Source: a virus
Length of the DNA stretch: 22,545 nt
Strand: one strand, 5' to 3'
Virus record (IMG/VR): IMGVR_UViG_3300044627_003126
Coordinates: 1-22,545 of that record
The notes beneath the pieces are model-generated. The model was not told the DNA's origin. It made no database searches and worked only from the letters and a program-made list of their open reading frames with translations. A program made the position numbers and the translations under genes. Below, piece by piece: positions 1 to 19,313 of the stretch (the stretch's first letter is position 1; every line of letters begins with the position of its first letter).

Positions 1-9
1 TTAAAATCC

Positions 10-447: not shown

Positions 448-450
448 GTT

Positions 451-1116
451 ATGTCCGTAAGATTAGTTTCGATCACAAACCCATCAGAATTAGTTAAATT
501 TACCGAAAAAGGTAAAACTACAAAGGTTTCACCAGAAGAATTGATTGTTTACATTGCGAGAGTAAGCAATCCAGATAATCAGATGAATATGGAAACTGCT
601 CCAAAATTGATAAACTATTTGATTAAACATAAACACTGGTCACCATTTGAATTTGTAGATATGACCGTTGAGATTGTAACTAGAAGAAGTATTGCAGCTC
701 AAATACTTCGTCATAAATCATTTTCTTTCCAAGAATTTTCACAAAGATATTCAACGGCAACAGAAATTCAATCCATTGAATTAAGAAGACAAGGAAAAAC
801 AAACCGTCAAAGTTCGGAAGAAGTAGTTCCGGATTTTACATTAGAACGTGATATCGAACAACATTTTGCTAATTCAAAAATGTTATATGATAAATTGATT
901 AAAAATGGTATATCAAGAGAAACTGCTCGTGATGTTCTTCCATTATCAACAGAAACCACTATGTATATGAAAGGTTCTGTTCGTAGTTGGATTCACTATT
1001 TGGATCTTCGCTGTTCACCCGATACACAAAAGGAACATCGTTTGATTGCAGAAGGGATAAAATCAATTTTTATCAATCAATTTCCGAACATTTCGGAAGC
1101 ATTAAATTGGAAATAA
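451..1116 (+). CDS. thyX: Flavin-dependent thymidylate synthase ThyX
   Basis: ThyX makes dTMP from dUMP using methylenetetrahydrofolate as carbon donor and NADPH with FAD for reduction; phages use it to feed DNA synthesis. The 221 residues fit the family length. The signature RHRxxSxNExSxRY is present as RHKSFSFQEFSQRY at residues 87-100, with Lys for the third Arg and Gln for Asn. Other family landmarks are HWSPFEF (62-68), ETARDVLPLST (157-167) and LRCSPDTQKEHR (186-197), which matches the C-terminal substrate-binding segment. It begins 3 bases after the preceding gene and has only a weak AAAGG-like ribosome site at about 433-437. The neighbouring methyltransferase-like gene may belong to the same nucleotide-metabolism block. 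The Arg-to-Lys change is conservative and the enzyme is probably active. Confidence 0.93.
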   Translation: MSVRLVSITNPSELVKFTEKGKTTKVSPEELIVYIARVSNPDNQMNMETAPKLINYLIKHKHWSPFEFVDMTVEIVTRRSIAAQILRHKSFSFQEFSQRYSTATEIQSIELRRQGKTNRQSSEEVVPDFTLERDIEQHFANSKMLYDKLIKNGISRETARDVLPLSTETTMYMKGSVRSWIHYLDLRCSPDTQKEHRLIAEGIKSIFINQFPNISEALNWK

Positions 1117-1133
1117 TATAGGAATTTAATTAT

Positions 1134-1661
1134 ATGACTTACGAAAACGATAATGGTTTTGCTAAAGAAATAATATATTGTGGAATTGGACAATATGAAA
1201 GTCTTTTACACTTTGGTGCGTGTGATGAAAATTTATTTTTTCTTCCGATATTAGATGAATTGGGGTTGGATATACAATATACAGCTGTGGATGTTAAGGA
1301 TGAAGTAAAAAAACTTTTTACGGATTTTGAGCCATTGGAAAGAACTAATACTTGGATTTCACATCAAGAATCCATGCAAGAGTTTATAGATAATATGGAA
1401 GACGAAAGATACACATGGACATTACTAACTGGTGTATTCAACAAACCACTTTATAGTGAAAGACAGTATCAATTTATAGATACCGTTATTAAAAAATGTT
1501 TAGAATTTTCGGATAATGTTATTTTCACAATAAATGAAAATGCCGATGATAGTTTCAAATATAGTATGATTTATCTATATTCACATTTTACAAATGCATT
1601 TGAATCCGTTACTGTAAAAAAGATAGGTGCGGGTAAATATATTTTTCATATAAAAAATTAG
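1134..1661 (+). CDS. Methyltransferase-like hypothetical protein
   Basis: This 175-residue protein has the pattern of a small class I SAM-dependent methyltransferase: a first strand and glycine turn (EIIYCGIGQYES, residues 12-23) where motif I would lie, an acidic strand end (YTAVDVK, 49-55) where motif II would bind the ribose, and a strand followed by TGVFNKP (about 99-105) similar to the 'SGxFN' motif of some phage methyltransferase-fold proteins. The glycine loop is poorer than the usual GxGxG, so cofactor binding is uncertain and the protein might be inactive. AGGAA at 1120-1124 is a good ribosome site 9 bases before ATG. It lies between thyX and a small membrane protein, in the same direction. 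The fold is inferred from motifs only; no substrate can be named. Confidence 0.55.
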   Translation: MTYENDNGFAKEIIYCGIGQYESLLHFGACDENLFFLPILDELGLDIQYTAVDVKDEVKKLFTDFEPLERTNTWISHQESMQEFIDNMEDERYTWTLLTGVFNKPLYSERQYQFIDTVIKKCLEFSDNVIFTINENADDSFKYSMIYLYSHFTNAFESVTVKKIGAGKYIFHIKN

Positions 1662-1671
1662 GAGTAAGGTT

Positions 1672-1950
1672 ATGGAAGGAATTTTTGTAATAGTATTACA
1701 AAGTGTGATACCATTTTTAATCGGTGGCGGTGGTGTTTGGCTGTATTTTCGTGATAAATTTACGGAAGTATTAACGGAATTAGAAGATAAAAAATCAATA
1801 ATCAAGGCAATACACGAACACGCCGATCAAATAGAAAGAGTGAATGTAAAAATTCAATCAAAAAAACATAATGCAAAGGTTGCCAAAGAAAATGTAAAGG
1901 TAACGAAACCAATTTCTAAAAAAACAACAAAAAAAAGTGATAAAAAGTAA
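1672..1950 (+). CDS. Small membrane protein with lysine-rich tail
   Basis: The 92-residue product has one hydrophobic segment at about residues 4-26, with a GGGG turn in it, then a short amphipathic helix (residues 28-62) and a strongly basic tail rich in Lys to the end. This suggests a single-pass inner-membrane protein with the charged domain in the cytoplasm. A strong TAGGAG site at 1659-1664 lies 7 bases before ATG. I cannot assign a family. Single-pass proteins of this size in phages include holins, antiholins and inner-membrane spanins, but no lysis gene partner is seen next to it, so a lysis role is only one possibility. The basic tail could also touch nucleic acid. Confidence 0.6.
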   Translation: MEGIFVIVLQSVIPFLIGGGGVWLYFRDKFTEVLTELEDKKSIIKAIHEHADQIERVNVKIQSKKHNAKVAKENVKVTKPISKKTTKKSDKK

Positions 1951-1966
1951 CTTTTATTATTGATAT

Positions 1967-1980
1967 ACATATTTATGATA
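1967..1980 (+). promoter_or_regulatory. ATATTTAT-type spacer element, candidate late promoter
   Basis: The spacer before the Fib_succ-domain gene contains ACATATTTATGATA. The same ATATTTAT core recurs in the spacers at 4247, 7156 and 16456. Because a gp55-type late sigma factor is encoded in the window, this could be a -10-like late promoter element. It is 40 bases before the ATG. Function is inferred only from recurrence and position. Confidence 0.3.
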
Positions 1981-2003
1981 AGAGTAAAATTTTTTTTCAA
2001 AAG

Positions 2004-2009
2004 AAGGAG
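2004..2009 (+). promoter_or_regulatory. Very strong ribosome binding site
   Basis: AAGGAG stands 6 bases before the ATG at 2016. The surrounding AAGAAGGAGATATA (2001-2014) is identical to the core of the phage T7 gene 10 ribosome site as I know it, and a T-rich run lies just upstream. This predicts heavy translation of the following gene, consistent with a virion or abundant surface protein. Confidence 0.75.
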
Positions 2010-2015
2010 ATATAA

Positions 2016-2645
2016 ATGGCAGTAGTAACAATAGGAACTCAAAAATGGAGTGACACAAATCTTTCTGTTTCAACATTCCAAGATGGTACTCCAATTTCTG
2101 AAATTTCATCATCTGAACAATGGGATGAATATGCAGCAGCAGGAACACCTGGTTGGTGTTATTACAATTTTGATTCAGGCAATGCACAAACTTATGGCAA
2201 ACTGTATAATTGGTATGCAGTATCATCATCCAATGCAATTTGTCCTACTGGTTTTCGTATTCCTACTAATGCAGATTTTGCAACATTAGCCGCACATCAG
2301 GGTGGTTCAGGTGTTGCTGGTTTGAAATTGAAAAATACTGATAACTGGTTAACCCTAACCAGAAGAAATTCAAACGGAACAAATAGTAGTGGATTCAAAG
2401 GAAATCCTGGTGGATATGTTAAATCTTCAACTTACGATTTTTGGGATCAAGGTTGGAGTGCAAATTTTTGGACACAAACAACAGCATCAGCAGAAGAAGT
2501 AGTTAGTAGACGATTATATTGGTCTGACGATACATTTAATGCATTAAATGCACCAAAAGACATGGGATTATCAGTTAGACTACTTTGTACAGGTTCAACA
2601 CAGCAGTGTTCTGACGGTGACTTTGATATTACAAATATGTTCTAA
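2016..2645 (+). CDS. Fibrobacter major paralogous domain (C-type-lectin-like) protein
   Basis: Almost the whole 209-residue protein matches the Fib_succ_major domain (TIGR02145/PF09603 type): TIGTQKWSDTNLSVSTFQDG at residues 5-24, a Trp/Tyr-rich centre, YGKLYNWYAV (about 60-69) followed by CPTGFRIPTNADFATL (75-90), and LGLSVRLLCT near the C-terminus. In bacteria the domain is usually part of secreted lipoproteins; here there is no signal peptide, so it more likely reaches the outside as part of the virion. The fold is related to formylglycine-enzyme/C-type-lectin folds that phages use for receptor binding. Its ribosome site is exceptionally strong. It could be a tail-tip or head-decoration adhesin; that role is inference. 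No reverse transcriptase or template repeat was seen, so nothing shows diversification. Confidence 0.8.
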   Translation: MAVVTIGTQKWSDTNLSVSTFQDGTPISEISSSEQWDEYAAAGTPGWCYYNFDSGNAQTYGKLYNWYAVSSSNAICPTGFRIPTNADFATLAAHQGGSGVAGLKLKNTDNWLTLTRRNSNGTNSSGFKGNPGGYVKSSTYDFWDQGWSANFWTQTTASAEEVVSRRLYWSDDTFNALNAPKDMGLSVRLLCTGSTQQCSDGDFDITNMF

Positions 2646-2660
2646 TTTAGGAGAGGTTGC

Positions 2661-3191
2661 ATGAAAAAATTTATATCATTCTTAATGATTAGTTTATCTC
2701 TTGTTATTCTTGGATGTAATGAAAATCCATTACCAACATCAGATACAACTATTTTTGAAAAAAGAACTCCAATTCAAAAAGATTCGGTTAAAAGACGTAT
2801 TCCCATCGAACAAGTATTGCCTTGCTTGGGATTGACAAGAGAACAAGATAGTGTGATAAGATTGATTTTGAAAGAAGAAAAAAAATGTAGTATTGAATGC
2901 AAAAAAGAATTTCAAGAATCAATTAAAACACTTCGTCAAGAATACAATGCAAAGATGGAAAAATATCGCCGTGTTGAAAAAACAGATGAAATAAAAAAGG
3001 AAATCGAAATAATTACTTTTGAGTTTCGTCAAACACAAAGAGATTTAGAAAAAGAATATAAGTTAAAAATGACAGAATGTGCTAAAAATCTAAATACTGA
3101 TATTGAAGCTCTTTTGAGAAAAGACCAACTTACTCTTTGGAACATTTGGAAGGCAACTGGAAAAGTTCCATGCGATAGAGTTAAACCATAA
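2661..3191 (+). CDS. Lipoprotein with LTxxQ-like motif and coiled coil
   Basis: The N-terminus is a textbook lipoprotein signal: MKKF, a hydrophobic core, and ILGC with the lipidated cysteine at residue 19. The mature protein (about 158 residues) contains LGLTREQDSV (residues 57-66), resembling the LTxxQ motif of the Spy/CpxP periplasmic chaperone family, then a long charged helical stretch (about 75-150) and a second DQLTLWN segment near 155-161. Extra cysteines occur at about 55, 77, 81, 140 and 172. A strong AGGAGAGG (2649-2656) precedes ATG, and an intrinsic terminator follows. A phage lipoprotein made in the infected cell would sit in the periplasm; superinfection exclusion or envelope-stress damping are plausible roles, not shown. 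The family link rests on short motifs. Confidence 0.75.
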   Translation: MKKFISFLMISLSLVILGCNENPLPTSDTTIFEKRTPIQKDSVKRRIPIEQVLPCLGLTREQDSVIRLILKEEKKCSIECKKEFQESIKTLRQEYNAKMEKYRRVEKTDEIKKEIEIITFEFRQTQRDLEKEYKLKMTECAKNLNTDIEALLRKDQLTLWNIWKATGKVPCDRVKP

Positions 3192-3226
3192 TCCATGTTC
3201 GGAATGGAAAGGGTAAACCCCTAATG

Positions 3227-3321: not shown

Positions 3322-4227
3322 ATGAAACTTGGATATGCCTGTATAAACATGACTTTATCAAAAGATAAAATCACTACCAATCGTTCCATGATTAAAAAAA
3401 CATTCCTACAAAAAGGTTTAGATTACTGTTCTGAACTTGCCTATATGAATGTTGTTGATATGGAGAAGATTATCAAATGGAATGTTCAAAACGGTATTTA
3501 CTTATTCCGCACATCTTCTAATGTATTTCCTTGGGGTTCTGAATATGATTTGGAACAACTAAAAGATATTGATAAAATCAAGATTGTCCTCAAACGAATT
3601 GGTGATTATGCAAAAGAACATGGTGTTCGTCTATCATGTCATCCTGGACCATTCAATGTTTTGTGTTCACCTAATCCTGATGTTGTAAAGAATACCATAA
3701 TTGATTTGGAACTACACGGTAAAGTATTTGACATGATGGGATTATCACATACACCATACAATAAAATCAACATACATTGTAATGGTGTTTATGGTGACAA
3801 GAACGCTTCACTTGACCGTTGGTGTCAAAACTTTCAATTACTATCCCATAGTGTTCGTTCAAGACTTACCATTGAGAATGATGATAAACCAAATATGTAT
3901 TCGGTTAAAGACCTTATGAAAATTCACGAATGTTGTGGTATTCCCATTGTATTTGATTATCACCACCACCAATTTTGCACTGGCGATTTGACTGAACAGC
4001 AAGCACTTGAACTTGCCATATCAACATGGCCAGAAGGTATTACACCTGCAGTTCATTATTCTTCATCAAGACTTAAAGAGACTGGTAATCCAAAAGAAAA
4101 ACCACAAGCTCATGCAGACTACATATTGGAAAAAATCAACACATACGGACATGATCTTGATATTATGTTAGAATGTAAAGCAAAAGAACTGGCTCTCAAA
4201 CGATACCTAACAGAATACGGAATCTAA
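3322..4227 (+). CDS. uvsE: UV damage endonuclease (UVDE/UvsE family)
   Basis: UVDE nicks DNA 5' to UV photoproducts and starts an alternative excision repair pathway; it folds as a metal-dependent TIM barrel. The 301 residues match the usual length. Landmarks in order: LGYACINM (3-10), FRTSSNVFPW (62-71), HPGPFNVLCSP (107-117), INIHCNGVYGDK (149-160), LTIENDD (182-188), FDYHHH (211-216), VHYSSSR (244-250), HADYI (264-268) and MLECKAKE (282-289). The likely metal ligands H107, H152, E185, H214-216, H245 and E284 are all present. No Shine-Dalgarno sequence precedes ATG, but the family similarity begins at residue 2, so the start is sound. It is set apart from its neighbours by a terminator upstream and a hairpin downstream, and uses CGN arginine codons more than the tail genes, suggesting a separately acquired, independently expressed cassette. 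Confidence 0.93.
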   Translation: MKLGYACINMTLSKDKITTNRSMIKKTFLQKGLDYCSELAYMNVVDMEKIIKWNVQNGIYLFRTSSNVFPWGSEYDLEQLKDIDKIKIVLKRIGDYAKEHGVRLSCHPGPFNVLCSPNPDVVKNTIIDLELHGKVFDMMGLSHTPYNKINIHCNGVYGDKNASLDRWCQNFQLLSHSVRSRLTIENDDKPNMYSVKDLMKIHECCGIPIVFDYHHHQFCTGDLTEQQALELAISTWPEGITPAVHYSSSRLKETGNPKEKPQAHADYILEKINTYGHDLDIMLECKAKELALKRYLTEYGI

Positions 4228-5390: not shown

Positions 5391-6050
5391 ATGAATGATT
5401 TTTATGAAGGTGAAGAATCGGTTGAACAAAAACCGGTAAACAATAAATCCAAAGAAGTTGAAACTGATATTCCTGTTAGATGGAAAGAAGCAACAACACA
5501 GATGGATTATGGTATTGATGTTGAAGCATCTTCTGTTTTATTATTCGGTGAAATAATGGATGGTTCTTTATATGACATTATCACTCGTATTCGTGCAATA
5601 CTACATATGAGAAAAGATGAACAAAAAAATGATCCAATCAATTTAATAATAAATTCAGATGGTGGTTCGGTATATGAAGCACTTGGTATTATTGATTATA
5701 TCCAAAGTCTTGATGTAAAAGTAAATACTATATGTAGAGGAAGGGCAATGTCTGCTGCTGCTCTAATACTCTGTGCAGGAACTGGTGTTCGAGCTGCATC
5801 ACAATACTCTACAATCATGTTCCATGAAATTAGTTCTGATATTTACGGTAAATCATCTGATATGAAAGCTAATGTTCAACACATGGAAAAATTGGAAGAA
5901 ATACTTTTAGAAATACTTAAATCAAACTCAAATAAAGATGTAGAATTTTGGAAAAATGTCACAATAAAGGATTATTACATAACACCAAAAGATGCTCTAA
6001 ATCTTGGTGTAATAGATGCAATTATTCCTCCAAAACATAAGAGAGGTTGA
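5391..6050 (+). CDS. ClpP-family serine protease
   Basis: The 219-residue product is a ClpP/crotonase-fold peptidase. The catalytic triad is visible: Ser121 in GRAMSAAALILCAG, His145 in IMFHEIS, and Asp194 in IKDYYITPKDAL, with spacings like E. coli ClpP (Ser97, His122, Asp171). INLIINSDGGSV (83-94) is the oxyanion-hole glycine strand, and LNLGVIDAII (203-212) is the usual C-terminal segment. About 40 extra N-terminal residues are acidic and look unstructured. GAAGGAG at 5378-5384 gives a strong start. No Clp ATPase is in the window. Phage ClpP-like enzymes can be head-maturation proteases or can join host Clp ATPases; the neighbours here are membrane and late-sigma genes, not capsid genes, so the role stays open. 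Confidence 0.88.
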   Translation: MNDFYEGEESVEQKPVNNKSKEVETDIPVRWKEATTQMDYGIDVEASSVLLFGEIMDGSLYDIITRIRAILHMRKDEQKNDPINLIINSDGGSVYEALGIIDYIQSLDVKVNTICRGRAMSAAALILCAGTGVRAASQYSTIMFHEISSDIYGKSSDMKANVQHMEKLEEILLEILKSNSNKDVEFWKNVTIKDYYITPKDALNLGVIDAIIPPKHKRG

Positions 6051-7167: not shown

Positions 7168-7545
7168 ATGAACTTTGATCAAGAACTTTTTGGCAATAAA
7201 AAATTTTCTGATTTACTTAAAGACATTTACGATAATCAGAAAAAGAAAGATCGTCAGATAAATTTACTTATTGCTGACTTAAAACCGATGCTTAATAACA
7301 TAAGCGATGCTTCTATTTTAGTGCCAGCAATAAAAGATTTTATGGAAGTTTCTGTTAAAAATGATGAACATCTAGTAAAATTGGCAGCAGTTGTTCAAAG
7401 AGCAATGTCTAATAAAACAGAAGAATCTAATTCGTTCTTGACAGATGATGAAAAAGAAGAACTTATGAAAAGTATTCAACAAATTCAAGAAGAACAAGAG
7501 GAAGTTGTTACAGATGAACGCACAAAAAACGATAATCAATGGTAG
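7168..7545 (+). CDS. Conserved small virion-cluster protein
   Basis: This 125-residue protein is helical and charged, with no membrane segment. Its opening (ELFGNKKFSDLLKDIYDNQKKKDRQINLLI, described here by positions 6-35) and the PMLNN..DA..LVPAIKDFMEVSVKNDEHLVKLA stretch resemble a small hypothetical protein that I associate with the tail gene clusters of T4-like marine phages. That similarity from residue 6 onward supports the start at 7168 even though no ribosome site is visible. The C-terminus is acidic and Gln/Glu-rich. The last 32 bases overlap the start of the spike gene, which points to coupled translation. Its function is unknown; a baseplate assembly or chaperone role would fit the position. 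Confidence 0.65.
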   Translation: MNFDQELFGNKKFSDLLKDIYDNQKKKDRQINLLIADLKPMLNNISDASILVPAIKDFMEVSVKNDEHLVKLAAVVQRAMSNKTEESNSFLTDDEKEELMKSIQQIQEEQEEVVTDERTKNDNQW

Positions 7546-10069
7546 TGAATTTGAAAATGTACCTGCTGAAGTTGTCAGAGTGGATTTTACAGGTGCAGAT
7601 AAAGAAAAACTGTATACCATTTATTGTAAACTTTTAGGTTCGTTCGGATCTCAAACTCAAAATAATATAATTGCCGCTCGTGCACTTGATGTTAATATAA
7701 AAAACATCCCGATAAAAGGCGAAGTTGTTATGCTAATAAAAGGTCCAACTGCATATAATAGTGCATTACGAACCGGACAAGAGTATTACTATACAAATCC
7801 CATATCAATTCAAAGCTCAATACATCACAACGGTATTCCTGGTGTTACTGACTTCACAACACAGACAACACAGACAGAAACAGAAAAAAGAAAAAATGCC
7901 GAAGATGGTGCTTGGAATAAAGTAGAAAATAAATTAAATGTAACAAAAACAATAGATCCTGGATTTCCAGAGCGTATAGATGTATACCCAATTCAACCAT
8001 ATCCAGGAGACATAATAATTGAAGGCAGATGGGGGCAATCAATAAGATTGGGTTCAACTATTGATGAAAGAAGATCTTATCCACAAAGACCATTATGGAA
8101 AAAGGGATTGGGTGATACCGGAAATCCAATTTTAATAATTTCTAATGGAACAAATCCTGAAAATAAACCATTCAACCAATTCATAATAGAAAATCCAGAT
8201 AAAGATGATTCTTCAATTTGGATGACATCTGGACATGAACTACAATTTACACCTGCATCAAAAGCACTTGCTGCTGCACAAAATAGAAAGGTTGATTTAC
8301 ATACTACAAATCAATGGGCAGGAAATCAAATACTAATTGCAACAGATAGAATTATATTGAATGCTAGAAAACAAGAAATAATGGCATTCTCTGCTGAAGG
8401 TATAGGATTATCAAGTGATAAAGGTGTGACTATTGATGGTGGTCAAGTTGTTGAAGTTGAATCTTCTCGTATAAATTTAGGAATAAATGCGGTTTCTCCT
8501 GTTTTATTGGGGGATAAAACAATGCAATGGTTAGGTGATTTATGTGATGCATTGGGAGAATTGTGTTCTCATATAACATCACAAACCCATCCGACTGGAA
8601 CAGGACCATCAGGACCTCCAATAAATGCAGGTTCTTTTAGTGCAGTTGCTTCAAAAATAAAAGGATTAAGAGGAAGTCTAAAATCATTACCAAGTGATTT
8701 GGTTTTTGTTTGTGAAAAATCAGGTGGTCCATCGAAGGCAGAACAAGATGAGGCAAAGAAAAGAGAAGAAACAAAAAGTGGTTATGTAAAACCTACGGAA
8801 GAATTAAACAATGATCCTCTCGGTACTGATGATGATCCAGCTACACCAACAGCTACTAATGTTGTAACTATAACAAAAGAAATTGATAATATAGAAGAAC
8901 AAAAGAAAAAGATATTAGAAAACTTAAAATCAAAAACAGGTGATTCTGCTGCGGCAAAAGATAATTCTGATGCAAATCCAGAACAAGGTAATTTAGAAAA
9001 AGCTCCAAATGAAACACCGCAAATAGATACTACAAAAATTGATCAAGATCCTCCTGAAATTATTTATTCATCTAGAACTAGAAGTAAGGGTGTATCTATA
9101 AAATATAAAGGCGTTACATACATAGTTGATACAAAAGGGACTGAATCTGATGGCAATGATTTAGGACAAACTTCATGGTTGGATGATACCTTTACTGTAA
9201 ATTCAACGGTAATAAATCTTTCACAATTTGCTGGAAAATCACCAGAAGAAAGGATTAAAATAATGGATCAGGCATTATTAGGATCTATACCAAATGGAAC
9301 ATCCGGAACATCTGGAACATCCGGAACATCTGGAACAAATACCGCTGATGTGATTCCAAATACAATTTCTCCAGAGTTTCCAAATGGAATAACATTTAAT
9401 GAATTAGGTTTGGACAAAACAAAAATGAAATTGATAAATGGAAGATGGGATTATACCGGAAATATAGAATTTACATTAGATAAACCCATGAAAAAATTTA
9501 ATCAACCAGATGGTTCTGTGTTGAGGGAAATTCCAATACCATTTGGAAATGTAAACGGTATATTCACTTGTTCAAATTTAGGGTTAAAATCATTAACCAA
9601 TGCTCCACAAGAAGTTGATTCGTTTGATTGTAGTAAAAATAAAAATATAACATCTCTTGTTGGTGGACCTAAAAAGGCGGTATTTTTTGATGCAAGTAAA
9701 TGTAGTTTGGTAAATCTTGAAGGTTCTCCAACTTATGTTGATGCATCATTCAATGTATCGCGAAATAATTTACAAAGTTTGAATGGAATACCAAAGCAAT
9801 ATGGATCCGGATGTCAATTTGAATTACAAGGAAATGTTGGTATAAAATCATTGTCTGGAATTGAATCAACAGAAGATAAACCTATTGCATACTTAAATGT
9901 TAGGGAATGTAATTTAACAAATGAAACTATTTTTGAAGGAGTTACTTCACTAATAATAAACAGATCAAAGGGTCAATTTAGCGGTGGTTCACAAACAAAT
10001 GGTAAACAGTTAGATGAAAATTTAATAAAGGAAACAACTGGTGCGTTTTCTATTTATGTTAAGTATTAA
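7514..10069 (+). CDS. Baseplate central spike protein (gp5/gpV-like) with C-terminal LRR domain
   Basis: The start is ATG 7514, behind AAGAGGAAG (7496-7504); a TTG at 7505 is possible but unneeded. The 851-residue product has an OB-like N-terminal region (residues 1-115), then YPGDIIIEGRWGQSIRLGS (about 158-176), and a gp5/gpV-type needle segment (about 255-395): repeated short beta strands with ILIATDRIILNAR, LLGDKTMQWLGDLCDAL, and SHITSQTHPTGTGPSGPP. A polar linker follows to about 600, including a GTSGTSGTSG repeat (595-608). The last 170 residues are leucine-rich-like repeats of the 'FxCSxNxLxxLxGxP' type. In contractile tails such spikes pierce the outer membrane. No lysozyme domain is seen in it; cell-wall enzymes are encoded two and three genes downstream. 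The LRR tail is unusual for this family and is paralogous to the end of the next protein. Confidence 0.7.
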   Translation: MNAQKTIINGSEFENVPAEVVRVDFTGADKEKLYTIYCKLLGSFGSQTQNNIIAARALDVNIKNIPIKGEVVMLIKGPTAYNSALRTGQEYYYTNPISIQSSIHHNGIPGVTDFTTQTTQTETEKRKNAEDGAWNKVENKLNVTKTIDPGFPERIDVYPIQPYPGDIIIEGRWGQSIRLGSTIDERRSYPQRPLWKKGLGDTGNPILIISNGTNPENKPFNQFIIENPDKDDSSIWMTSGHELQFTPASKALAAAQNRKVDLHTTNQWAGNQILIATDRIILNARKQEIMAFSAEGIGLSSDKGVTIDGGQVVEVESSRINLGINAVSPVLLGDKTMQWLGDLCDALGELCSHITSQTHPTGTGPSGPPINAGSFSAVASKIKGLRGSLKSLPSDLVFVCEKSGGPSKAEQDEAKKREETKSGYVKPTEELNNDPLGTDDDPATPTATNVVTITKEIDNIEEQKKKILENLKSKTGDSAAAKDNSDANPEQGNLEKAPNETPQIDTTKIDQDPPEIIYSSRTRSKGVSIKYKGVTYIVDTKGTESDGNDLGQTSWLDDTFTVNSTVINLSQFAGKSPEERIKIMDQALLGSIPNGTSGTSGTSGTSGTNTADVIPNTISPEFPNGITFNELGLDKTKMKLINGRWDYTGNIEFTLDKPMKKFNQPDGSVLREIPIPFGNVNGIFTCSNLGLKSLTNAPQEVDSFDCSKNKNITSLVGGPKKAVFFDASKCSLVNLEGSPTYVDASFNVSRNNLQSLNGIPKQYGSGCQFELQGNVGIKSLSGIESTEDKPIAYLNVRECNLTNETIFEGVTSLIINRSKGQFSGGSQTNGKQLDENLIKETTGAFSIYVKY
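9296..9337 (+). repeat. 9-bp tandem repeat encoding Gly-Thr-Ser linker
   Basis: Four in-frame copies of GGAACATCY (alternating C and T at the last base) plus a partial fifth encode GTSGTSGTSGTSGT. The tract separates the needle/linker part of the spike from its LRR domain. A related tract occurs at 14747-14797 in the GH19 protein. Confidence 0.9.
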
Positions 10070-10103: not shown

Positions 10104-12203
10104 ATGGCAGGTAAATCTACATACACAATAGATAAAAAAGATTTTATATTTTCAGTTTGTTGGGAAAAGATAGAGGCAAGTGGTACAACATTTCCAAAAA
10201 AATATGAATTTGTAGAGTGTCCAAATGATCCAAATTCAACTGAAAATGCTGCAAGATATAGAAAAGAAGCAAGAATTGTATCATTTGGTAGAGAATTTTG
10301 TTCTGCAATAACTTGGAATGGATCCGAAGGAGCACAATACTATATTAAAAATAATGTTTATATTGGTGATGATACTTGTCCTATTGAAGATAAAAAAAAT
10401 CAACCAGTAGAAATAAAAAAAGAAGATACCGTTGCACAAATGTTTTCAAAAATAAATGATGGTAAAAATATATCAGAAGAATTGAACAAAACAGAAGAAG
10501 TAAAAAAAGAAACATCAGGATTTTTAAGTAGTGTGAGTAGCACTATTTTATCCGGTATATCTAATTTTAATGATTTGAAAACGTTATCATTGAATAAATT
10601 AGAAACTGCAGCAACTTCTATTGGAATAAGTAAACGCAGTCTAAATAAACTGATAAACATTACAGATAAAATTGATGCTAGAGGTTTAATTGGTGGTGAT
10701 ATAAATTCTACAAAACAAATGTTATTAGGTGAATTGGAAAATACCAATCTTTATGATGTTGCTAAAACTCCTGAAGTATTGGGGTTATTATCCGAACAAC
10801 TTGGTATATCGGAAGCAAATCTTGAAAAAATGTTAAATACAGCTGAAAATGTAAGATCATTATCAGACATCACATCCATAGAACAATTTATGAATATGGA
10901 TTTTGCATTCAAAGAAAAATTTGCATTAGATAATTTTATACCAACTGATATGTTAGACGATGTAATGCCAATATCATTACAACTTCTTTCAAACGATGAA
11001 AATGTTAGAAGATTAGCAGAAGAAAATGCAAAACAATTACTTGGTCGAAAAATAATGGAGATGGTTTCTCCAAACGTGGCCGAATTAACACCTGGACAAG
11101 ATTTGGGTTTACCTAATTTTTTACAAAATTTTTCAAATATGGATTACAGAATACAAAAAGTTGCTGCAGTTGCTTTAGGATTTGGAACAGAAGAAGCTGC
11201 TGTTCTTGAATGTAGAAACGTTATGGATCAATTAAAACAATATAGAGAGTTGGATGAACAATCAAATTCATTAAAAAATTCATTATATGACCATGCAAAT
11301 AAATTGTATACCGATAGAGATCTAAATCCAAAAATTATTGATGATTATTTGGAAGAACATGGTTTGAAAGAGGAAGAATTGATAAAGGCATTGAATGTTT
11401 CAGATAAGTTATACGCAACAACAATAAAAACATCATACTCATCTGATACAGGTGATTGGGCAGGCGATTCATCTGATGGTAAGGTTCCAACTGAACCGGA
11501 TGCATCCAGTCTTGAAACAAATGCAACAGGTCAAATTCCTGCCGCTATTGTAATACCAACTATAAACGAAAGATTGATAATAAAAACAGAAACACCGGCA
11601 GGTACAAGATTTGATTACAATGGTAGTTTGGAATTTAAGCGTGAAGATTTGGTAAATGGAAAGATACCAGTTAAATTTACAAAAGTAAATGGAAATTTTG
11701 TATGTAAAAATATAGGATTGAAAACATTAGAAAATTGTCCTGAAATTATCGGTGGTGAATTTGATTGTTCAAATAATGAATTGACAAATTTAGTTGGTGG
11801 ACCAAATGAAGTTGGATGGAATTATAGATGTTCAAATAATAAACTTGAAAGTATAAAAGGCGTTGCATTTACAATAGGTGCATCTCGTAACGATTCATTG
11901 TTTAATTGTTCTAATAATCCATTGCAATCGCTAGAAACAGGTAGACAACAAGAGGTTACTATATTTGGTAGAGGTATGTTATGTACTGATACAACCTTAA
12001 AAAGTTTTGCCGGAACTGCTTTGGATATTAAAGGGACAATGGATGTTCGTTCAAATGATTTACGTCATATTGATTTATTTGCTAACGCCATAGTAAGAGT
12101 TGGAAATGAAATCAGATTGGATGGTCAGAAGAACACAGAAAGGTTTAATCTTGAAGAAGTACAACAAAGAACTGGAGCAAAAACAGTTTCATTAAATAAG
12201 TAA
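10104..12203 (+). CDS. Large helical baseplate-region protein with C-terminal LRR domain
   Basis: I do not recognise the main part of this 699-residue protein. The N-terminal ~95 residues form a compact domain with four cysteines (19, 39, 66, 92). Residues about 105-450 are almost all helical, with repeated short helices of similar length (SLNKLETAATSIGISKRSL, EVLGLLSEQLGISEANLEKM) suggesting a helical-repeat or coiled-rod region. A polar Ser/Asp/Thr linker (about 455-490) leads to an LRR-like domain (525-650) with VNGNFVCKNIGLKTL, FDCSNNELTNLVGGP and CSNNPLQSL. The LRR is clearly related to that of the upstream spike. Its place between the spike and the wall hydrolases suggests a baseplate hub or tail-tip component. 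Its ribosome site is weak (GGATG). It is too short and too composite to call a tape measure. Confidence 0.7.
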   Translation: MAGKSTYTIDKKDFIFSVCWEKIEASGTTFPKKYEFVECPNDPNSTENAARYRKEARIVSFGREFCSAITWNGSEGAQYYIKNNVYIGDDTCPIEDKKNQPVEIKKEDTVAQMFSKINDGKNISEELNKTEEVKKETSGFLSSVSSTILSGISNFNDLKTLSLNKLETAATSIGISKRSLNKLINITDKIDARGLIGGDINSTKQMLLGELENTNLYDVAKTPEVLGLLSEQLGISEANLEKMLNTAENVRSLSDITSIEQFMNMDFAFKEKFALDNFIPTDMLDDVMPISLQLLSNDENVRRLAEENAKQLLGRKIMEMVSPNVAELTPGQDLGLPNFLQNFSNMDYRIQKVAAVALGFGTEEAAVLECRNVMDQLKQYRELDEQSNSLKNSLYDHANKLYTDRDLNPKIIDDYLEEHGLKEEELIKALNVSDKLYATTIKTSYSSDTGDWAGDSSDGKVPTEPDASSLETNATGQIPAAIVIPTINERLIIKTETPAGTRFDYNGSLEFKREDLVNGKIPVKFTKVNGNFVCKNIGLKTLENCPEIIGGEFDCSNNELTNLVGGPNEVGWNYRCSNNKLESIKGVAFTIGASRNDSLFNCSNNPLQSLETGRQQEVTIFGRGMLCTDTTLKSFAGTALDIKGTMDVRSNDLRHIDLFANAIVRVGNEIRLDGQKNTERFNLEEVQQRTGAKTVSLNK

Positions 12204-12216
12204 TTAGAGAAAATAC

Positions 12217-13197
12217 ATGGCAGAAGTAACAGATTTAACAACGGAAACAGATAGAGTTGAAGAAAGTCTTGAAGGTGCAGAAGTAATTGGACCATATAGA
12301 CGGCAACTCCTTGAATATAGACCTACAACACAAGAGGAAGAAGAATTTATTACAATAGATACTAGACAAAACGATTGGTCTGATATTGCACTTGGATTAT
12401 ATGAACAAATTTCTAGTGAACTTCCATCCGATACATTATATGAAGGAGGTGGTATTGCAGGTGCGTGTATTGATCCTGCAACAGGAAATGTAGGAACATT
12501 AGTGAATACTGATCCCGGAACAGGACAACAATCAATCGTTCCTACTGGAACAACCGTAAAAAATGTAACAACACCAACTACTGGTGGTACTATACCAAAT
12601 GTACAAGCAACCACACCAACGCCAGGAAATCTTACAGAATTACAAAAAGAAATAGTAAATCAGGCCGTTGATTTTTTACAACTGAAACCACCAGGACAAA
12701 AATGGGAAAACGATAACCGTGCAATAGATAGTGCATTGACAAGTTTGAGACAAAAATTCCCAAATAAATCAGGAATGGCACCGGATATGTGGTGTGCACT
12801 ATTTACAACGGTTTGTGTTAATGAGGCGTGTAAAGTTGTTGGTGCAAAAAATACCTGTCCAATTACTCTTGGTGCATCTGCATCTGTTACTGGAAATAAT
12901 CCACCTGTAAGTACAATTCCTGAACCAGGTGATATAATGTGGAAATGTTGCGGTGGAAGAAGTGGCCATGTTGGTATAGTAGTTTCCGTATCATCAAATG
13001 GCGGAATTTTAACAATAGAAGGTAATATGGGTGATGCAGTTGCCATGCGTAGATATAAAAATAATGAAGGCATGAAATTCAAACACGCAGGTAGAATGCC
13101 ACATACTGGAAGAGCAAGACCAGTTAATGGATATGGAAAATTAGAAAATCTTGCAGCCGCAGGTTATCTTAAAGGTGGAAAATGGAAAACAACATAA
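12217..13197 (+). CDS. CHAP-domain peptidoglycan hydrolase, tail-associated
   Basis: The C-terminal half of this 326-residue protein is a CHAP (cysteine/histidine-dependent amidohydrolase/peptidase) domain: Cys193 in MWCALFTTVC, His251 in PGDIMWKCCGGRSGHVGIV, and an acidic/Asn pair in TIEGNMG (Glu268, Asn270). CHAP enzymes cut peptidoglycan peptides or the amide to the glycan. The N-terminal 65 residues are acidic and may dock to the baseplate (an LysM-like or gp53-like role for residues 49-66, TRQNDWSDIALGLYEQIS, is possible because T4-like gp53 and LysM-type segments share such a 'D.W..IA...Y' pattern). A Thr/Pro/Gly-rich linker spans about 85-138. The location inside the baseplate cluster, and the lack of a nearby holin, argue for a virion-borne enzyme used at entry rather than a free endolysin. 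Confidence 0.85.
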   Translation: MAEVTDLTTETDRVEESLEGAEVIGPYRRQLLEYRPTTQEEEEFITIDTRQNDWSDIALGLYEQISSELPSDTLYEGGGIAGACIDPATGNVGTLVNTDPGTGQQSIVPTGTTVKNVTTPTTGGTIPNVQATTPTPGNLTELQKEIVNQAVDFLQLKPPGQKWENDNRAIDSALTSLRQKFPNKSGMAPDMWCALFTTVCVNEACKVVGAKNTCPITLGASASVTGNNPPVSTIPEPGDIMWKCCGGRSGHVGIVVSVSSNGGILTIEGNMGDAVAMRRYKNNEGMKFKHAGRMPHTGRARPVNGYGKLENLAAAGYLKGGKWKTT

Positions 13198-13210
13198 TTT
13201 GGAGAATTAA

Positions 13211-16200
13211 ATGGCAGTAAGTATTTCACCTTTGATGAACGATCCAGCTTTTAATGGAACCAGTAAAAATAAAACGGATAAAAAATTATTTTTACAGGCA
13301 TTACCTGCTATCCTTGGTGCATATAAAATGACAAATACTTTTAGATTGGTTCATTTTTTAGGTCAAACCGCGCATGAAACTGGTAATTATTTTTATGAAG
13401 AAGAAATTGCAAGTGGAGAAAAATATAATGGTAGATCTGATTTAGGTAATAAACAACCGGGAGATGGACCAAAATTTAAGGGCAGAGGATTTGTTCAATT
13501 AACAGGAAGACATAATTACACTTTATTTCAAAAAAAGACTGGTGTTGATTTTACTTCTACATTAGATGCTGCTAGAAAAGTTCTTCAACCACAATATCTG
13601 TGGAGTTCTGCCGGTTGGTATTTTTTAGAACAAAGACCTAAATTTTTTGGTGTTGCTGATCAAGGTATAAATAATAATACTATTCTACCTATATCAAAAT
13701 TTGTAAACGGTGGAACAAATGGACTTGCGGATCGTCAGAAAAAAACATTTCATTTTGGTAGTCTGTTCGGCCAAACAAACCAAACAGTTTCGGTTCCAGT
13801 ATCATCTACGAATCCAATAGCAACTCCTGTTGTAAGCACAACAACCGGAACAACAGATGTTACAAATAATGGAGCAACTCAGCCTGCTGCCGCATCTGCA
13901 GTTTGTACTGATATGGACAAATTAGATGGTAAATTAAAATCAAACGAAGGTCCTAATGGTGCCGGTGATGTTGCTTTTGATCCAGTTCCACCACCAAAAA
14001 GAGATACACCGATTCGTAGTGACGGTGGATTAAATCATAGATTTTATCAGAGACCATCGAAAGAGGGATTGCCAGCAACTCTTGAAGAAATGGTTAATAA
14101 GAAAAATAAGTGGTATAAAAGATATTGGGCATATAGACCAAATGAGGGTCTTGGGTTTGGTTCTGAAAAATTTGAATCAACTATAACTCAAAATTCAAAA
14201 AATTTAATAACATCGTTGATACCATATTGGCCTCCTGTTGATCTTCCTGTATCTGCATCTGTTAGTGGATCAAAACAATCTGGAGATTTAGATCCAAAAC
14301 CAACGGTAAATGGTAGTTGGAAAAATTTAATAAATGGTCAAGGTGATATTAAATCGGTTTGGGATATTCCAATACTTTTGAATACATACGATGTTGGTGT
14401 ATTTAATCAAAACATAGGTTATACATTTGAAGCCGGAAATGAATTACACATGACTATTTTGCCAGAAAAAACAGTAATAAATCGTGGTAAAAGTTTGGGT
14501 ATTGGTAGTGGGACAAATACTATTACAACTGAAAAGGCAAATAAAGATTCAAGTTGGCAACATTGGCCAAAATGGGATGGTATATGGGTAAAACATTGTC
14601 TTAATAGTTCAGGATATACAACATTTGCTGGTATAGATATTAGTGTTGATCAATATCATCAAACAATTCTTGCCGGTGGTAAAGGTGGTGGTAAATTAGT
14701 AAACATTCCAGGATATATCGAAACTGCTGTATCTGGCTCTGACAATTCTGGAACATCTGGAACATCCGGCACAAGTGGAACAAGTGGAACAAGTGGAAAT
14801 TCTACTGAAACGGTGAACACTAAAGCAAAAAATAAAAAAGTTGCAAAAGAAAAAGTAAAAAAAGAAAAAGACTGGTCATGGAAAGAAATGCTTGCAAATA
14901 GTAAACAAGACGGTATATTCAAACCAAGTAAATTGTGGTTCCAACCAACGTATCTAAATGCAGATGAAAAATTACAAGATGGTGATATTGCCATTTTTAT
15001 TGTAGATTATCATTTTACAAAAGACGGAAAATTTACACCAAAAGGTGAAAAATTACTTAAAAAAATAATTGAATTAAATTGGAAGTTGGCAATAGTTTCT
15101 ACCATTCCACATCATACATCACAGAGTATAAAATGTAGAGCAGAAGTTCTAGCATATTTAGATGAAACTGGAGAAATGATTACAATAGGTGGTGATACAA
15201 AACCATACAAAGGCGATTCTACTGCTGAAATTGGATCACATATTGCAGTAAAAACAACAAGTATACATGAAATTGCCGGTTTACAATCTGATTCTTGGAT
15301 AAATGGATCGGTTGTAATTTCAAAAGTAAAATCTTCACCATCGGAGGATCAAAGAGAAGGTGGTTTGAATACAAAGTTTTATATTTCTGAAATTATGGAT
15401 AAATACATAAAAGAAATAGATAATCAACCTGAAAAACTTACTGGAAGATTATTCAATTTTATACGAGAAAAAATAAAATACAAACCCCAGGCGGCACCAG
15501 TTCAAACAGATACAGGAGGATCAACTGGTACAGTTGTAGGTGCAGGTGCAGGTGGATTAGGTGCATCATCACCACCACCAAACATAGTAGTTCCTGCTGG
15601 ACAAAGAGTTTTTGCGGGTGGATCAAAACAAAATGTTTATGGCCAATCATTGGGTTGGATATTGGTATTATGGTCTCATGTTTTGAAAAGATATGTAATA
15701 ACACAAGGTGCAAAAAAAGGAAATGTTATTTGGAAAGATTTTGCTATAGGAAATTTAGGACAAAGTAGATCTTTAGCAGATACCAAGGCAGGAGGTCCAG
15801 GACGTTCTACTTCAAGTTTACACGCTGCATTACTTGGAAATGATATAACATTTCATCATCCAGAATATACTGATGTTGTTGATGGTCGTAGACCAAGTGG
15901 TCCTGTTCCAGGTTTAACACCATTTCCAACGTACAATACTGTAAAAGGACAGATACCAAATTATTGTGCAAAAGGAAATACTGTTCCAGTTTATGGTGCA
16001 AATGTACCACCGTGCACAGGTGCTGCTATGTTTTTTAGTGATTATGGACAAGAATTATACAACTTAAAATTGAATATAGCCAGAAATCCAAAAAAATTCA
16101 TAGACCAATATGGATTTCCAGCAACTACAGCAGACCGTAAACACGGTGCTCCTGTTTTGCCATCATTTGGATTACATAATATAGATTGGGGACAGGATGT

Positions 16201-16432
16201 TTTTGGTAAAGGAAAATATCCAGATAAATGGCCGTTGGATGTCAAACAAGGACCAGCAAAAGGTGGTGCACATGAATGGGGTTGGCGAGAATGGGCACAT
16301 CTCCAGGCACCTGATAAAATTCAAGTTCAACTATGGAGTGCATACACAACAGATTTGTGGGCATCTGCAAAATTAAAACCGGCAGATATGCTTAATGGTG
16401 ATAAACGTGCATTATTTTATTCAAGAAAATAG
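13211..16432 (+). CDS. Giant multidomain tail protein with N-terminal GH19 lysozyme domain
   Basis: Residues about 20-187 of this 1073-residue protein are a glycoside hydrolase family 19 (chitinase/lysozyme-type) domain: FLGQTAHETGNYFYEEE (49-65, general acid Glu56), KFKGRGFVQLTGRHNY (88-103), WYFLE (136-140) and ISKFVNGGTNGLADRQ (161-176). A Ser/Thr/Asn linker (189-230) leads to a middle region with IRSDGGLNHRFY and many aromatic residues, which I do not recognise, then a GTSG repeat linker (513-528), a Lys-rich stretch, another unknown domain (about 555-760), a Gly-rich linker (about 770-790) and an unknown 275-residue C-terminal domain rich in Trp and His. GGAGA at 13201-13205 precedes ATG. 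GH19 cleaves beta-1,4 glycan bonds of the wall, complementing the adjacent CHAP enzyme. The rest may form a tail-tip scaffold or bind receptors. Confidence 0.85.
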   Translation: MAVSISPLMNDPAFNGTSKNKTDKKLFLQALPAILGAYKMTNTFRLVHFLGQTAHETGNYFYEEEIASGEKYNGRSDLGNKQPGDGPKFKGRGFVQLTGRHNYTLFQKKTGVDFTSTLDAARKVLQPQYLWSSAGWYFLEQRPKFFGVADQGINNNTILPISKFVNGGTNGLADRQKKTFHFGSLFGQTNQTVSVPVSSTNPIATPVVSTTTGTTDVTNNGATQPAAASAVCTDMDKLDGKLKSNEGPNGAGDVAFDPVPPPKRDTPIRSDGGLNHRFYQRPSKEGLPATLEEMVNKKNKWYKRYWAYRPNEGLGFGSEKFESTITQNSKNLITSLIPYWPPVDLPVSASVSGSKQSGDLDPKPTVNGSWKNLINGQGDIKSVWDIPILLNTYDVGVFNQNIGYTFEAGNELHMTILPEKTVINRGKSLGIGSGTNTITTEKANKDSSWQHWPKWDGIWVKHCLNSSGYTTFAGIDISVDQYHQTILAGGKGGGKLVNIPGYIETAVSGSDNSGTSGTSGTSGTSGTSGNSTETVNTKAKNKKVAKEKVKKEKDWSWKEMLANSKQDGIFKPSKLWFQPTYLNADEKLQDGDIAIFIVDYHFTKDGKFTPKGEKLLKKIIELNWKLAIVSTIPHHTSQSIKCRAEVLAYLDETGEMITIGGDTKPYKGDSTAEIGSHIAVKTTSIHEIAGLQSDSWINGSVVISKVKSSPSEDQREGGLNTKFYISEIMDKYIKEIDNQPEKLTGRLFNFIREKIKYKPQAAPVQTDTGGSTGTVVGAGAGGLGASSPPPNIVVPAGQRVFAGGSKQNVYGQSLGWILVLWSHVLKRYVITQGAKKGNVIWKDFAIGNLGQSRSLADTKAGGPGRSTSSLHAALLGNDITFHHPEYTDVVDGRRPSGPVPGLTPFPTYNTVKGQIPNYCAKGNTVPVYGANVPPCTGAAMFFSDYGQELYNLKLNIARNPKKFIDQYGFPATTADRKHGAPVLPSFGLHNIDWGQDVFGKGKYPDKWPLDVKQGPAKGGAHEWGWREWAHLQAPDKIQVQLWSAYTTDLWASAKLKPADMLNGDKRALFYSRK
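14747..14797 (+). repeat. Second Gly-Thr-Ser linker tandem repeat
   Basis: Five to six in-frame 9-base units of the form TCNGGAACA or AGTGGAACA encode SGTSGTSGTSGTSGTSG. Serine codons switch from TCT/TCC to AGT across the tract, so the peptide is conserved more than the DNA. Same peptide as the repeat at 9296-9337 in the spike gene. Confidence 0.9.
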
Positions 16433-16495: not shown

Positions 16496-16933
16496 ATGGA
16501 TAGTGAAAATTTTTTCAAAAAAATTCGTAGCATAATAAGAGAAGAAATTGATTATGCTTTAGAAAAAAAAATACCTAAAAATTCTGTTTCCAAATCATCT
16601 CAAACAAAAGAAATAGAGCACGGAATGAAATTGTATAAAGAACAATACAATGGTAAAAAACCTGCGGTAAAAAAACCTACTGCAAGTAATTCTAAATTTA
16701 ATTCAATACAAGATATTTTGAATGAAACAAAAAGAACATTAAACGAAAGTATGGAAATGGAAAGAGAATTTACCTTTACATCAGATATGGCTGAAAATTT
16801 TGGTTATTCAAATCAAAGCGCTGCTATTCCACAAGGATATTCTTCCAATGATATACCAGAAAATGTAATGGATGCATTGACAAAAGATTATTCGGCTCTT
16901 ATGAAAGCAATAGATGAAAAGAAAGGGAGATGA
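16496..16933 (+). CDS. Small structural-cluster protein before gp25
   Basis: This 145-residue protein starts with an amphipathic helix (FFKKIRSIIREEIDYALEKK, residues 6-25), then a Lys/Ser-rich flexible stretch (28-70), a helical Asn/Glu/Met-rich part (about 73-95) and a C-terminal helix ending KAIDEKKGR. It has no membrane segment. Similar short proteins with an N-terminal 'REEIxxAL' helix lie beside gp25 in other T4-like phages as I remember them, but I know no function. AAGG at 16484-16487 gives a fair ribosome site. The stop is 3 bases before the gp25 start, and its last codons hold the gp25 ribosome site, so the two are likely coupled. A baseplate wedge accessory role is a reasonable guess. 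Confidence 0.65.
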   Translation: MDSENFFKKIRSIIREEIDYALEKKIPKNSVSKSSQTKEIEHGMKLYKEQYNGKKPAVKKPTASNSKFNSIQDILNETKRTLNESMEMEREFTFTSDMAENFGYSNQSAAIPQGYSSNDIPENVMDALTKDYSALMKAIDEKKGR

Positions 16934-16936
16934 TAA

Positions 16937-17440
16937 TTGGCACTTTATAGAAGAAAACGAGTAGTTGTAAACACCCCTAATGTTGATATTCAATTAACAA
17001 AACCAATAGGGATAACTATTCCATTCAATAAACCGAGTGGAATTTTTAATCAAAGTTTTACAAACCATGAACAAGTTTTTTCTAACTTAAAAAATTTATT
17101 ACTGACAAATAAGGGTGAACGGTATATGCTTCCGGAATTTGGAACAGATATACGTGCAGTTCTTTTTGAAAATATAACAAGTGAAGATGCATTTACAAAT
17201 TCAATAAATGGGGAAATTGAATCGGCAATATCCGAATGGATGCCTTATTTGGTAATTACGGAACTCGAAACAACAATTCCATCATACGATCAAAGAATTG
17301 ATGAACAAGAACATTCCGTGAGAATCAAATTAGTTGTTCAAATTGGTTCAACAAACATTTATTTACCAATTCAAATACTTATATCTGATACCGGAGAATT
17401 AGAAATAAGAGAGGCAGTCTACAATGGCAGATTTAGTTAA
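16937..17440 (+). CDS. Baseplate wedge subunit, gp25-like
   Basis: Gp25 family proteins (GPW/gp25) form the core of the baseplate wedge in contractile tails and injection systems, next to gp6. The 167-residue product shows VNTPNVDIQLTKPIGITIPF (11-30), EQVFSNLKNLLLTNKGERYM (45-64) and PEFGTDIRAVLFENI (66-80), the family's signature EPR-type core, then a beta strand domain with IRIKL-like strands to the end. The start is TTG at 16937: GGGAGA (16925-16930) lies 6 bases upstream, and the family similarity begins at ALYRRKR; no in-frame ATG is suitable. The end overlaps gp6 by 17 bases. It is a little longer than T4 gp25 (132 residues). Confidence 0.92.
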   Translation: MALYRRKRVVVNTPNVDIQLTKPIGITIPFNKPSGIFNQSFTNHEQVFSNLKNLLLTNKGERYMLPEFGTDIRAVLFENITSEDAFTNSINGEIESAISEWMPYLVITELETTIPSYDQRIDEQEHSVRIKLVVQIGSTNIYLPIQILISDTGELEIREAVYNGRFS

Positions 17441-19313
17441 AAAAGATATTCGTTACTTATCAAGAGATTTTACTTCTCTTAAACAAAATCTTATTGATTT
17501 TGCTAAAAATTATTTTCCGAATACATATCAAGATTTTAATGAAACATCGCCTGGAATGATGTTTTTAGAAATGGCAGCTTATGTAGGAGATGTTTTATCG
17601 TATTACACCGATGTTACATTGCAAGAATCAATGATATTACATTCTAGCGAAAGAACCAATGTATTAAACATTGCACAGTCACTTGGTTATATGCCAAAAA
17701 ATAGAATAGCTGCAACTGTAAGTTTGGATGTATTTCAAATAGTTCCTGCCATTGCGAGTGGTAGTTCTATTATTCCTGATTATTCTTATGCATTTGCAAT
17801 AGAACCTGGAATGGTTGTAGGATCTGGAACAGGAACTACTGTTGAATTTAGAACAATAGACTACATTGATTTCAAATTTAGTAGTAGTTTTGATCCAACA
17901 GAAGTTACACCATTTGAAGTTGATGCAAACGGAGAAGTATTATTTTGGTTATTAAAAAAATCTGTAAAAGCTGTTTCCGGAACAATACAAGCAATAAATT
18001 ATGAATTTACGGATCCAAAACCATACGATAGAGTGACATTACAGGATCCAAATTTAATAGAAATACTATATGGTATAGATTCAGACAATAACGTTTGGTA
18101 TAATGTTCCTTATTTGGCAGTTGATACAATTTTCGATCCGGTTGTAAACATATCAAGAAATGATAGAACACTATCAAAACACAGAAATGAAACACCGTAT
18201 TTATTAAAGTTAAAAAAAGTTTCTAGACGATTTACCATTAGAACTGTTGATCTTGGAACGTATGATATACAATTTGGTGCAGGTGTTTCCGATTTAGATG
18301 ATGAACTTTTAATTCCAAATCCAGATTTGGTCGGTAATTCATTGATTGGAACTGAAACAGCAACATCTGCAGATATTGATCCATCAAATTTTCTTTATAC
18401 AAAAACTTATGGATTGGCTCCAAATAACACAACACTTACAGTATACTATACAACGGGAAATGGTATAAATGATAATGTTGCAAGTGATACATTAACCAAT
18501 GTAATAACAAGAGAAATTTTATTAGATGAAACTGGATTGGATCCAGTTTTATATCAACAGGCGGTTGCAAGTTTAGCAGTAACAAATCCCAATCCTGCTG
18601 TTGGTGCAAAAGATTTAGAAGATATAAATGAAATCAGACAAAATGCTCTCGCATCTTTTGCTTCACAAAATCGTGCAGTAACAAAAGAAGATTATATTAT
18701 TCGTGCTTATAGTTTACCAGCAAGATATGGTTCTATTGCAAAGGCATATATTTCAAAAGATACACAGCTTATTTCAAACGCAATTTACAATAGTGATAGA
18801 GTTCAAAATGACTTGGCATTAAATTTTTATGTTCTTGGTTACGATTCAAACCAAAAACTTACAATGATAAATGATGCAACAAAAGAAAATTTGAAAACAT
18901 ATCTAAATCACCACAGAATACTTACAGATGCTGTTAATATAAGAGATGCATACATAATAAACATAGGTATTGAATTTGATGTTATCATATTACCTGATCA
19001 AAATAGCAATCAAGTAATTCTTCGATGTATAAATGCTCTTAAAAAATACTTTGATATAAAAAAATGGCAAATAAACCAACCTATTGTAATAAGTAATATA
19101 TTTACCGAATTGGATAAAGTAGAAGGGGTTCAAACTGTTGTTGATGTAAAAATTAAAAACTTGTATGACACAACTCTTGGTTATTCACAACACGCATATA
19201 ATATACAAGAAGCAACAAAAGATGGAATAATTTTTCCCTCACTTGATCCTTCTATATTTGAAATAAAATATCCAGATAATGATATTATTGGTAAAGTGAG
19301 GGCATTTGGATGA
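17424..19313 (+). CDS. Baseplate wedge subunit, gp6-like (baseplate J family)
   Basis: Gp6/J proteins form the ring of the baseplate and drive the shape change on infection. The 629 residues are close to T4 gp6 (660). The N-terminal block is well conserved: DIRYLSRDFTSLKQNLIDFA (8-27), NETSPGMMFLEMAAYVGDVLSYYTD (39-63, key residues Pro43, Glu49, Tyr53, Asp56), then ERTNVLNIAQSLGYMPK (76-92). The family's RAVTKEDYIIRAYSLP and YGSIAKAYISKD segments are near 413-440. GAGAGG at 17409-17414 precedes ATG 17424. It overlaps gp25 upstream (17 bases) and the next gene downstream by ATGA (19310-19313), so the three are one translationally linked unit. Confidence 0.92.
   Translation: MADLVKKDIRYLSRDFTSLKQNLIDFAKNYFPNTYQDFNETSPGMMFLEMAAYVGDVLSYYTDVTLQESMILHSSERTNVLNIAQSLGYMPKNRIAATVSLDVFQIVPAIASGSSIIPDYSYAFAIEPGMVVGSGTGTTVEFRTIDYIDFKFSSSFDPTEVTPFEVDANGEVLFWLLKKSVKAVSGTIQAINYEFTDPKPYDRVTLQDPNLIEILYGIDSDNNVWYNVPYLAVDTIFDPVVNISRNDRTLSKHRNETPYLLKLKKVSRRFTIRTVDLGTYDIQFGAGVSDLDDELLIPNPDLVGNSLIGTETATSADIDPSNFLYTKTYGLAPNNTTLTVYYTTGNGINDNVASDTLTNVITREILLDETGLDPVLYQQAVASLAVTNPNPAVGAKDLEDINEIRQNALASFASQNRAVTKEDYIIRAYSLPARYGSIAKAYISKDTQLISNAIYNSDRVQNDLALNFYVLGYDSNQKLTMINDATKENLKTYLNHHRILTDAVNIRDAYIINIGIEFDVIILPDQNSNQVILRCINALKKYFDIKKWQINQPIVISNIFTELDKVEGVQTVVDVKIKNLYDTTLGYSQHAYNIQEATKDGIIFPSLDPSIFEIKYPDNDIIGKVRAFG

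Follow-up and report, generated by a model that had tools for sequence, protein, structure and literature searches.

Predicted cell-wall hydrolases with exchangeable modules at two conserved baseplate-cluster positions of a viral contig and its relatives

Comparison of a virus record (IMGVR_UViG_3300044627_003126; 22,545 nt, a 22.5-kb genome fragment and not a complete genome, hereafter the window) with its relatives points to a baseplate gene cluster in which the gene order is fixed and the enzymes carried at two conserved mounts appear to be interchangeable. The original prediction had described two adjacent virion proteins with complementary wall hydrolases at this place and had missed the comparative pattern, which is the stronger finding. 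Quite probably, the two proteins are baseplate-mounted virion-associated lysins whose catalytic modules are exchanged on fixed mounts, their presence in the virion and their activity being predicted from the genes. The shuffling of receptor-binding modules in tail fibres is well known, and the wall-cutting enzymes of the baseplate appear to do likewise. This provides a testable case in which wall penetration, beyond adsorption, may be under diversifying pressure, and the naturally matched combinations of carrier and enzyme could be used for testing the determinants of wall-penetration specificity.

Gene order and domain content of the cluster

Protein scans of viral contigs were used to collect the near relatives, to which 80 contigs anchored on gp6 were added. 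The window encodes, in this order, a spike, a 699-aa protein, a CHAP protein, a GH19 protein, a 145-aa protein, gp25 and gp6 (Table 1), and gp25 together with the gp6/J-like protein just downstream confirms the baseplate-cluster setting. The CHAP and GH19 proteins, whose positions are referred to as slot 1 and slot 2, are encoded by open reading frames located exactly where they had been placed before (12217-13197, 326 aa, and 13211-16432, 1073 aa). Two complementary hydrolase families were thus matched in adjacent proteins between the spike and gp25/gp6, as originally proposed.

Table 1. Features of the baseplate cluster in the window
Feature	Coordinates	Strand	Evidence
Spike (gpV/gp5-like), C-terminal LRR-like domain	7514..10069	+	PHROG baseplate protein E 0.008; alignment with relatives; AF2
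699-aa protein	10104..12203	+	LRR-like C-terminus as in spike; retained at the same position in near relatives
Slot-1 N-terminal ~90 aa	12217..12486	+	Retained in near relatives despite different enzymes behind it
Slot-1 CHAP domain, Cys193/His251/Glu268	12790..13026	+	Pfam CHAP E 3.8e-8; invariant residues; dN/dS 0.11
Slot-2 GH19 domain, Glu56 and Glu64/65	13259..13771	+	phrog_181 E 2.8e-29; PDB endolysins E 5.6e-20
Slot-2 conserved core, residues 226-764	13886..15502	+	45-98% identical among relatives, flanking modules differ
Slot-2 C-terminal module	15551..16429	+	dN/dS 0.07; VanY/M15-like module in this place in relatives
Small conserved protein (145 aa), slot to gp25	16496..16933	+	Found in most relatives of sufficient sequence length
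Baseplate wedge gp25/gpW	16937..17440	+	PF04965 E 5.9e-10
Baseplate wedge gp6/gpJ	17424..19313	+	phrog_219 E 1.2e-21

The CHAP domain of slot 1 matched PF05257 over residues 192-270, scoring 34.1 bits (cut-off 26), and the proposed catalytic residues Cys193 and His251 were invariant across four homologues, as were Glu268 and Asn270. The ~90 residues at the N-terminus of this protein are probably its virion-docking part.

The GH19 domain with Glu56 that had been read at the N-terminus of slot 2 was recovered at about residues 17-187 by two PHROG endolysin families (phrog_181, and another with E 1.2e-24), and residues 24-178 matched the solved endolysins 9hnv (E 5.6e-20, the best solved match) and 9ms7 (E 2.6e-19). 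In the alignment with 9hnv, both Glu56 and Glu64/65 fall opposite glutamates. The catalytic glutamates of other GH19 endolysins are spaced nine residues apart, and from this spacing Glu65 may be the second catalytic glutamate. The Pfam GH19 profile PF00182 gave 14.4-16.1 bits on the window, under the curated cut-off of 25.5, and the homologous module of one relative (L009) cleared that cut-off with 30.6 bits; given the matches to PHROG and solved endolysins, there is little doubt that the domain belongs to GH19. Behind the GH19 domain lies a conserved core, which had been suggested by eye, from W-x-G and TIGGN motifs, to be DUF2272 (PF10030), and this assignment was rejected, there being no Pfam match at E <= 10 and, by hhalign to a CHAP set, a weak match of only 60% over 35 columns. 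The C-terminal module was without a match in PDB, Pfam or PHROG, and its homologues were confined to two near-identical contigs. An AlphaFold model of the whole 1073-aa protein was unusable (pLDDT 34.7).

In T4 the lysozyme is located inside the spike gp5. Pfam, PHROGs and a PDB profile search matched no lysozyme domain in the spike of the window, and nothing resembling a lysozyme is seen in its AlphaFold model, in agreement with the original description of a spike without lysozyme; since residues 1-600 of the model are mostly of low confidence (pLDDT is about 90 or more in the LRR part), the absence of a lysozyme domain is likely rather than proven. The LRR-like C-terminal domain is common to the spike and the 699-aa protein (30% identity over 215 aa), and relatives have it in a further protein as well, of 528-536 aa and encoded downstream of gp6.

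From the spike through the variable genes and the small protein to gp25 and gp6, the gene order recurred in the gp6-anchored contigs. In 27 of the 45 contigs in which both ends of the interval from spike to small protein were recognised, the interval contained a gene of at least 150 aa, and in the other 18 it did not. The enzymes recognised there comprised CHAP, GH19, GH24, M15/VanY, a C39-type peptidase (L028) and NAGPA (L017); in many outer relatives the interval held short proteins with no recognisable hydrolase. One contig (L024:1485-5276) encodes a single slot protein of 1263 aa with a VanY/M15-like N-terminus, a weak Pfam match (E 0.098), and a C-terminus resembling the slot-2 core. When genome contigs were searched, no relatives were found with the core as query, and gp6 retrieved four MAG contigs, which are 42-48% identical, come from mixed origins and are uninformative on the host.

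Exchange of catalytic modules between relatives

Within the clade of the window, slot 1 retains the ~90-aa N-terminus and slot 2 retains a core of ~480-540 aa, and the enzymes attached to them vary (Table 2). Besides the architectures listed, a NAGPA-like domain occupies slot 1 of L102, and GH19 occupies the slot of the cultured phage Mel-JY01. The glycosidase of slot 2 is GH19, GH24 or none. The slot-1 domain of the L099 type is named only NAGPA-like because its support is weak (the best Pfam match, E 0.011, comes from a single one of the five members; hhalign 66%). The N-terminal part of slot 2 in relatives, here termed esterase-like, has Ser, Asp and His residues that do not vary among the aligned sequences, and its Pfam matches to alpha/beta-hydrolases are weak.

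Table 2. Module architectures of the two slot proteins
Contig	Slot 1	Slot 2
Window	CHAP	GH19-core-unmatched C-terminal module
L097	CHAP	esterase-like-GH24-core-VanY
L098, L101	M15	esterase-like-GH19-core-VanY
L099, L114	NAGPA-like	esterase-like-GH24-core-VanY
L106	CHAP	esterase-like-GH19-core-VanY
L103 group	GH19	esterase-like-core-(VanY-like)
L108, L113	NAGPA-like	esterase-like-core-VanY-like

Non-homologous glycosidases were found on cores that are 94-98% identical, with the breaks at conserved linkers. The cores of L101 and L102 are 97.9% identical, yet one protein carries GH19 and the other GH24, and their esterase-like and VanY parts are 34% and 46% identical. L098 and L102 have cores that are 94% identical, together with 34% identity in the esterase-like part and 85% in the VanY part; between L097 and L099 the identities are 91% in GH24, 33% in the esterase-like part and 49% in the VanY part. 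These pairwise comparisons show that the modules have been exchanged independently of one another. The DNA alignment of L098 and L099 ends within slot 1, restarts in a stretch of 123 bases in which the esterase-like part ends and its linker follows, and after a second gap across the glycosidase restarts just before the core.

On a tree of the concatenated small protein (16496), gp25 and gp6, the enzyme class of slot 1 required 8 changes against a mean of 7.8 for shuffled labels, so that no clustering by phylogeny was detected, a result that is weakly powered because only 15 tips are labelled; the slot-2 glycosidase required 4 changes on the same tree. Across the window genes and the exchanged modules tested, dN/dS ranged from 0.09 to 0.36, with 0.07 for the slot-2 C-terminal module, indicating purifying selection and thus that they are in use. 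The value for the GH19 module of L098/L101 was 0.21; that for the GH19 domain of the window itself is uninformative, as it differs from L005 at three positions only.

The near relatives are all metagenomic contigs, and the mosaic could in principle have arisen from chimeric assembly. We consider this very improbable, because the same architectures recur in several contigs (L103-L105, L107 and L109; L099, L102 and L114; L098 and L101), mostly with different sample numbers, and the breaks fall at linkers, with intact reading frames and with purifying selection on the modules.

Entry, lysis and the nature of the substrate

Both slot proteins contain domains of the peptidoglycan-hydrolase type with the active-site residues present, and their genes lie inside the virion structural cluster. 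The GH19 domain matched mostly endolysins, as would be the case if the GH19 and CHAP proteins served lysis and happened to lie in the tail cluster. Against this stand the large conserved non-catalytic parts of the slot proteins, their fixed place by the spike and wedge genes, and the two complete cultured relatives, Microcystis phage Mel-JY01 (host Microcystis elabens) and Flavobacterium phage immuto, each of which has a separate stand-alone GH19 gene of ~205 aa. Mel-JY01 (PP395634, a complete 190-kb record with a gp6 71% identical to that of the window) has one GH19 protein of 343 aa in the slot (WWT39505, annotated as putative chitinase) and, 69 kb away from it, a stand-alone GH19 gene of 204 aa, whose product is WWT39389. 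In immuto no hydrolase was recognised in the slot, and gp191, a 206-aa frame with GH19 annotated as endolysin, adjoins the holin. The window, being a genome fragment, showed no endolysin gene of its own. On the evidence of the relatives and of the slot proteins themselves, an endolysin role of the latter is highly unlikely. Given their fixed place and the separate GH19 gene in both complete relatives, the slot proteins probably serve entry rather than lysis, and the simplest reading is that lysis would be carried out by the stand-alone GH19 enzyme and entry by the slot proteins.

A further alternative is that the target is not peptidoglycan but a surface polysaccharide or exopolymer, for instance a capsular or chitin-like glycan. 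The GH19 family includes chitinases, among which the Mel-JY01 copy is annotated, and the relatives carry the NAGPA-like phosphodiester glycosidase and the alpha/beta-hydrolase-like part. However, the modules found in place of GH19 or alongside it are typical peptidoglycan enzymes (GH24, M15/VanY and CHAP), and the best solved matches are endolysins, and we regard a polysaccharide target as unlikely.

Under the preferred reading of entry through peptidoglycan, both proteins would be virion-associated lysins located at the baseplate, close to the spike. On infection, peptide bonds would be cut by the CHAP domain, as an amidase or endopeptidase, and the glycan by the GH19 domain, peptidoglycan being the putative substrate of both, and the combined cuts may make a local opening through which the tail tube can pass. 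The ~90-aa N-terminus of slot 1 and the ~500-aa core of slot 2 would act as fixed docking mounts, and the catalytic modules would be swapped by recombination between relatives at the conserved linkers. With mounts fixed and catalytic modules exchanged, the spike-wedge site would thus be an evolutionary tool holder. A more far-reaching proposal, which we put forward tentatively and consider doubtful, is that the spike-wedge region is a dedicated exchange site at which as many as four or five activities against the envelope (esterase-like, glycosidase, D-Ala-D-Ala peptidase, CHAP peptidase and phosphodiester glycosidase-like) have been independently recombined onto conserved baseplate mounts, matching the wall chemistry of the host, with the slot-2 core as a catalytically dead CHAP-like scaffold.

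Comparison with known systems and upstream genes

Like T4 gp5 and phage P2 gpV, the spike of the window is encoded near wedge genes of the gp25/gp6 type, with predicted wall cutting at the baseplate; unlike in T4 gp5, no lysozyme was detected in the spike and the enzymes are separate proteins. In phage phi29, gp13 has a second, glycosidase domain. The protein is a known tail-tip hydrolase (PMC9662197). HydH5 of Staphylococcus phage phiIPLA88 is virion-associated and joins CHAP and LYZ2 in one protein (PMC3150257), and the tail modules of enterococcal phages encode lysins of several types, some of which have more than one lysin domain (PMC10194240). A kit of two enzymes for peptide and glycan, originally presented as unusual, is accordingly ordinary in kind. 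The window resembles HydH5 in pairing a peptide cutter with a glycan cutter encoded in a morphogenetic module, virion association being predicted here from the genes; unlike that single staphylococcal phage protein, it has two adjacent baseplate-cluster proteins, GH19 and exchangeable modules. Enterococcal tail lysins were reported to group by viral genus (PMC10194240), whereas here the enzyme class varies among close relatives with a nearly identical carrier. In the openly accessible papers searched, no case was found of the one-by-one exchange of baseplate lysin modules on a conserved carrier among close relatives. Mel-JY01 shares the gene order and a GH19 slot protein with the window but has a single slot protein, with neither CHAP nor a core-bearing second protein.

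Upstream of the tail genes, the window encodes ThyX (451-1116), a Fibrobacter-major-domain protein (2016-2645), a UvdE UV endonuclease (3322-4227) and a ClpP-like protease (5391-6050). The Fibrobacter-domain gene was not found in the near-identical contig L006. When positions 1-3200 of the window were compared with L006, divergence changed sharply upstream of the UvdE gene, where ThyX is 91% and the next protein 52% identical to the window; from the UvdE gene onward the identity is 100%.
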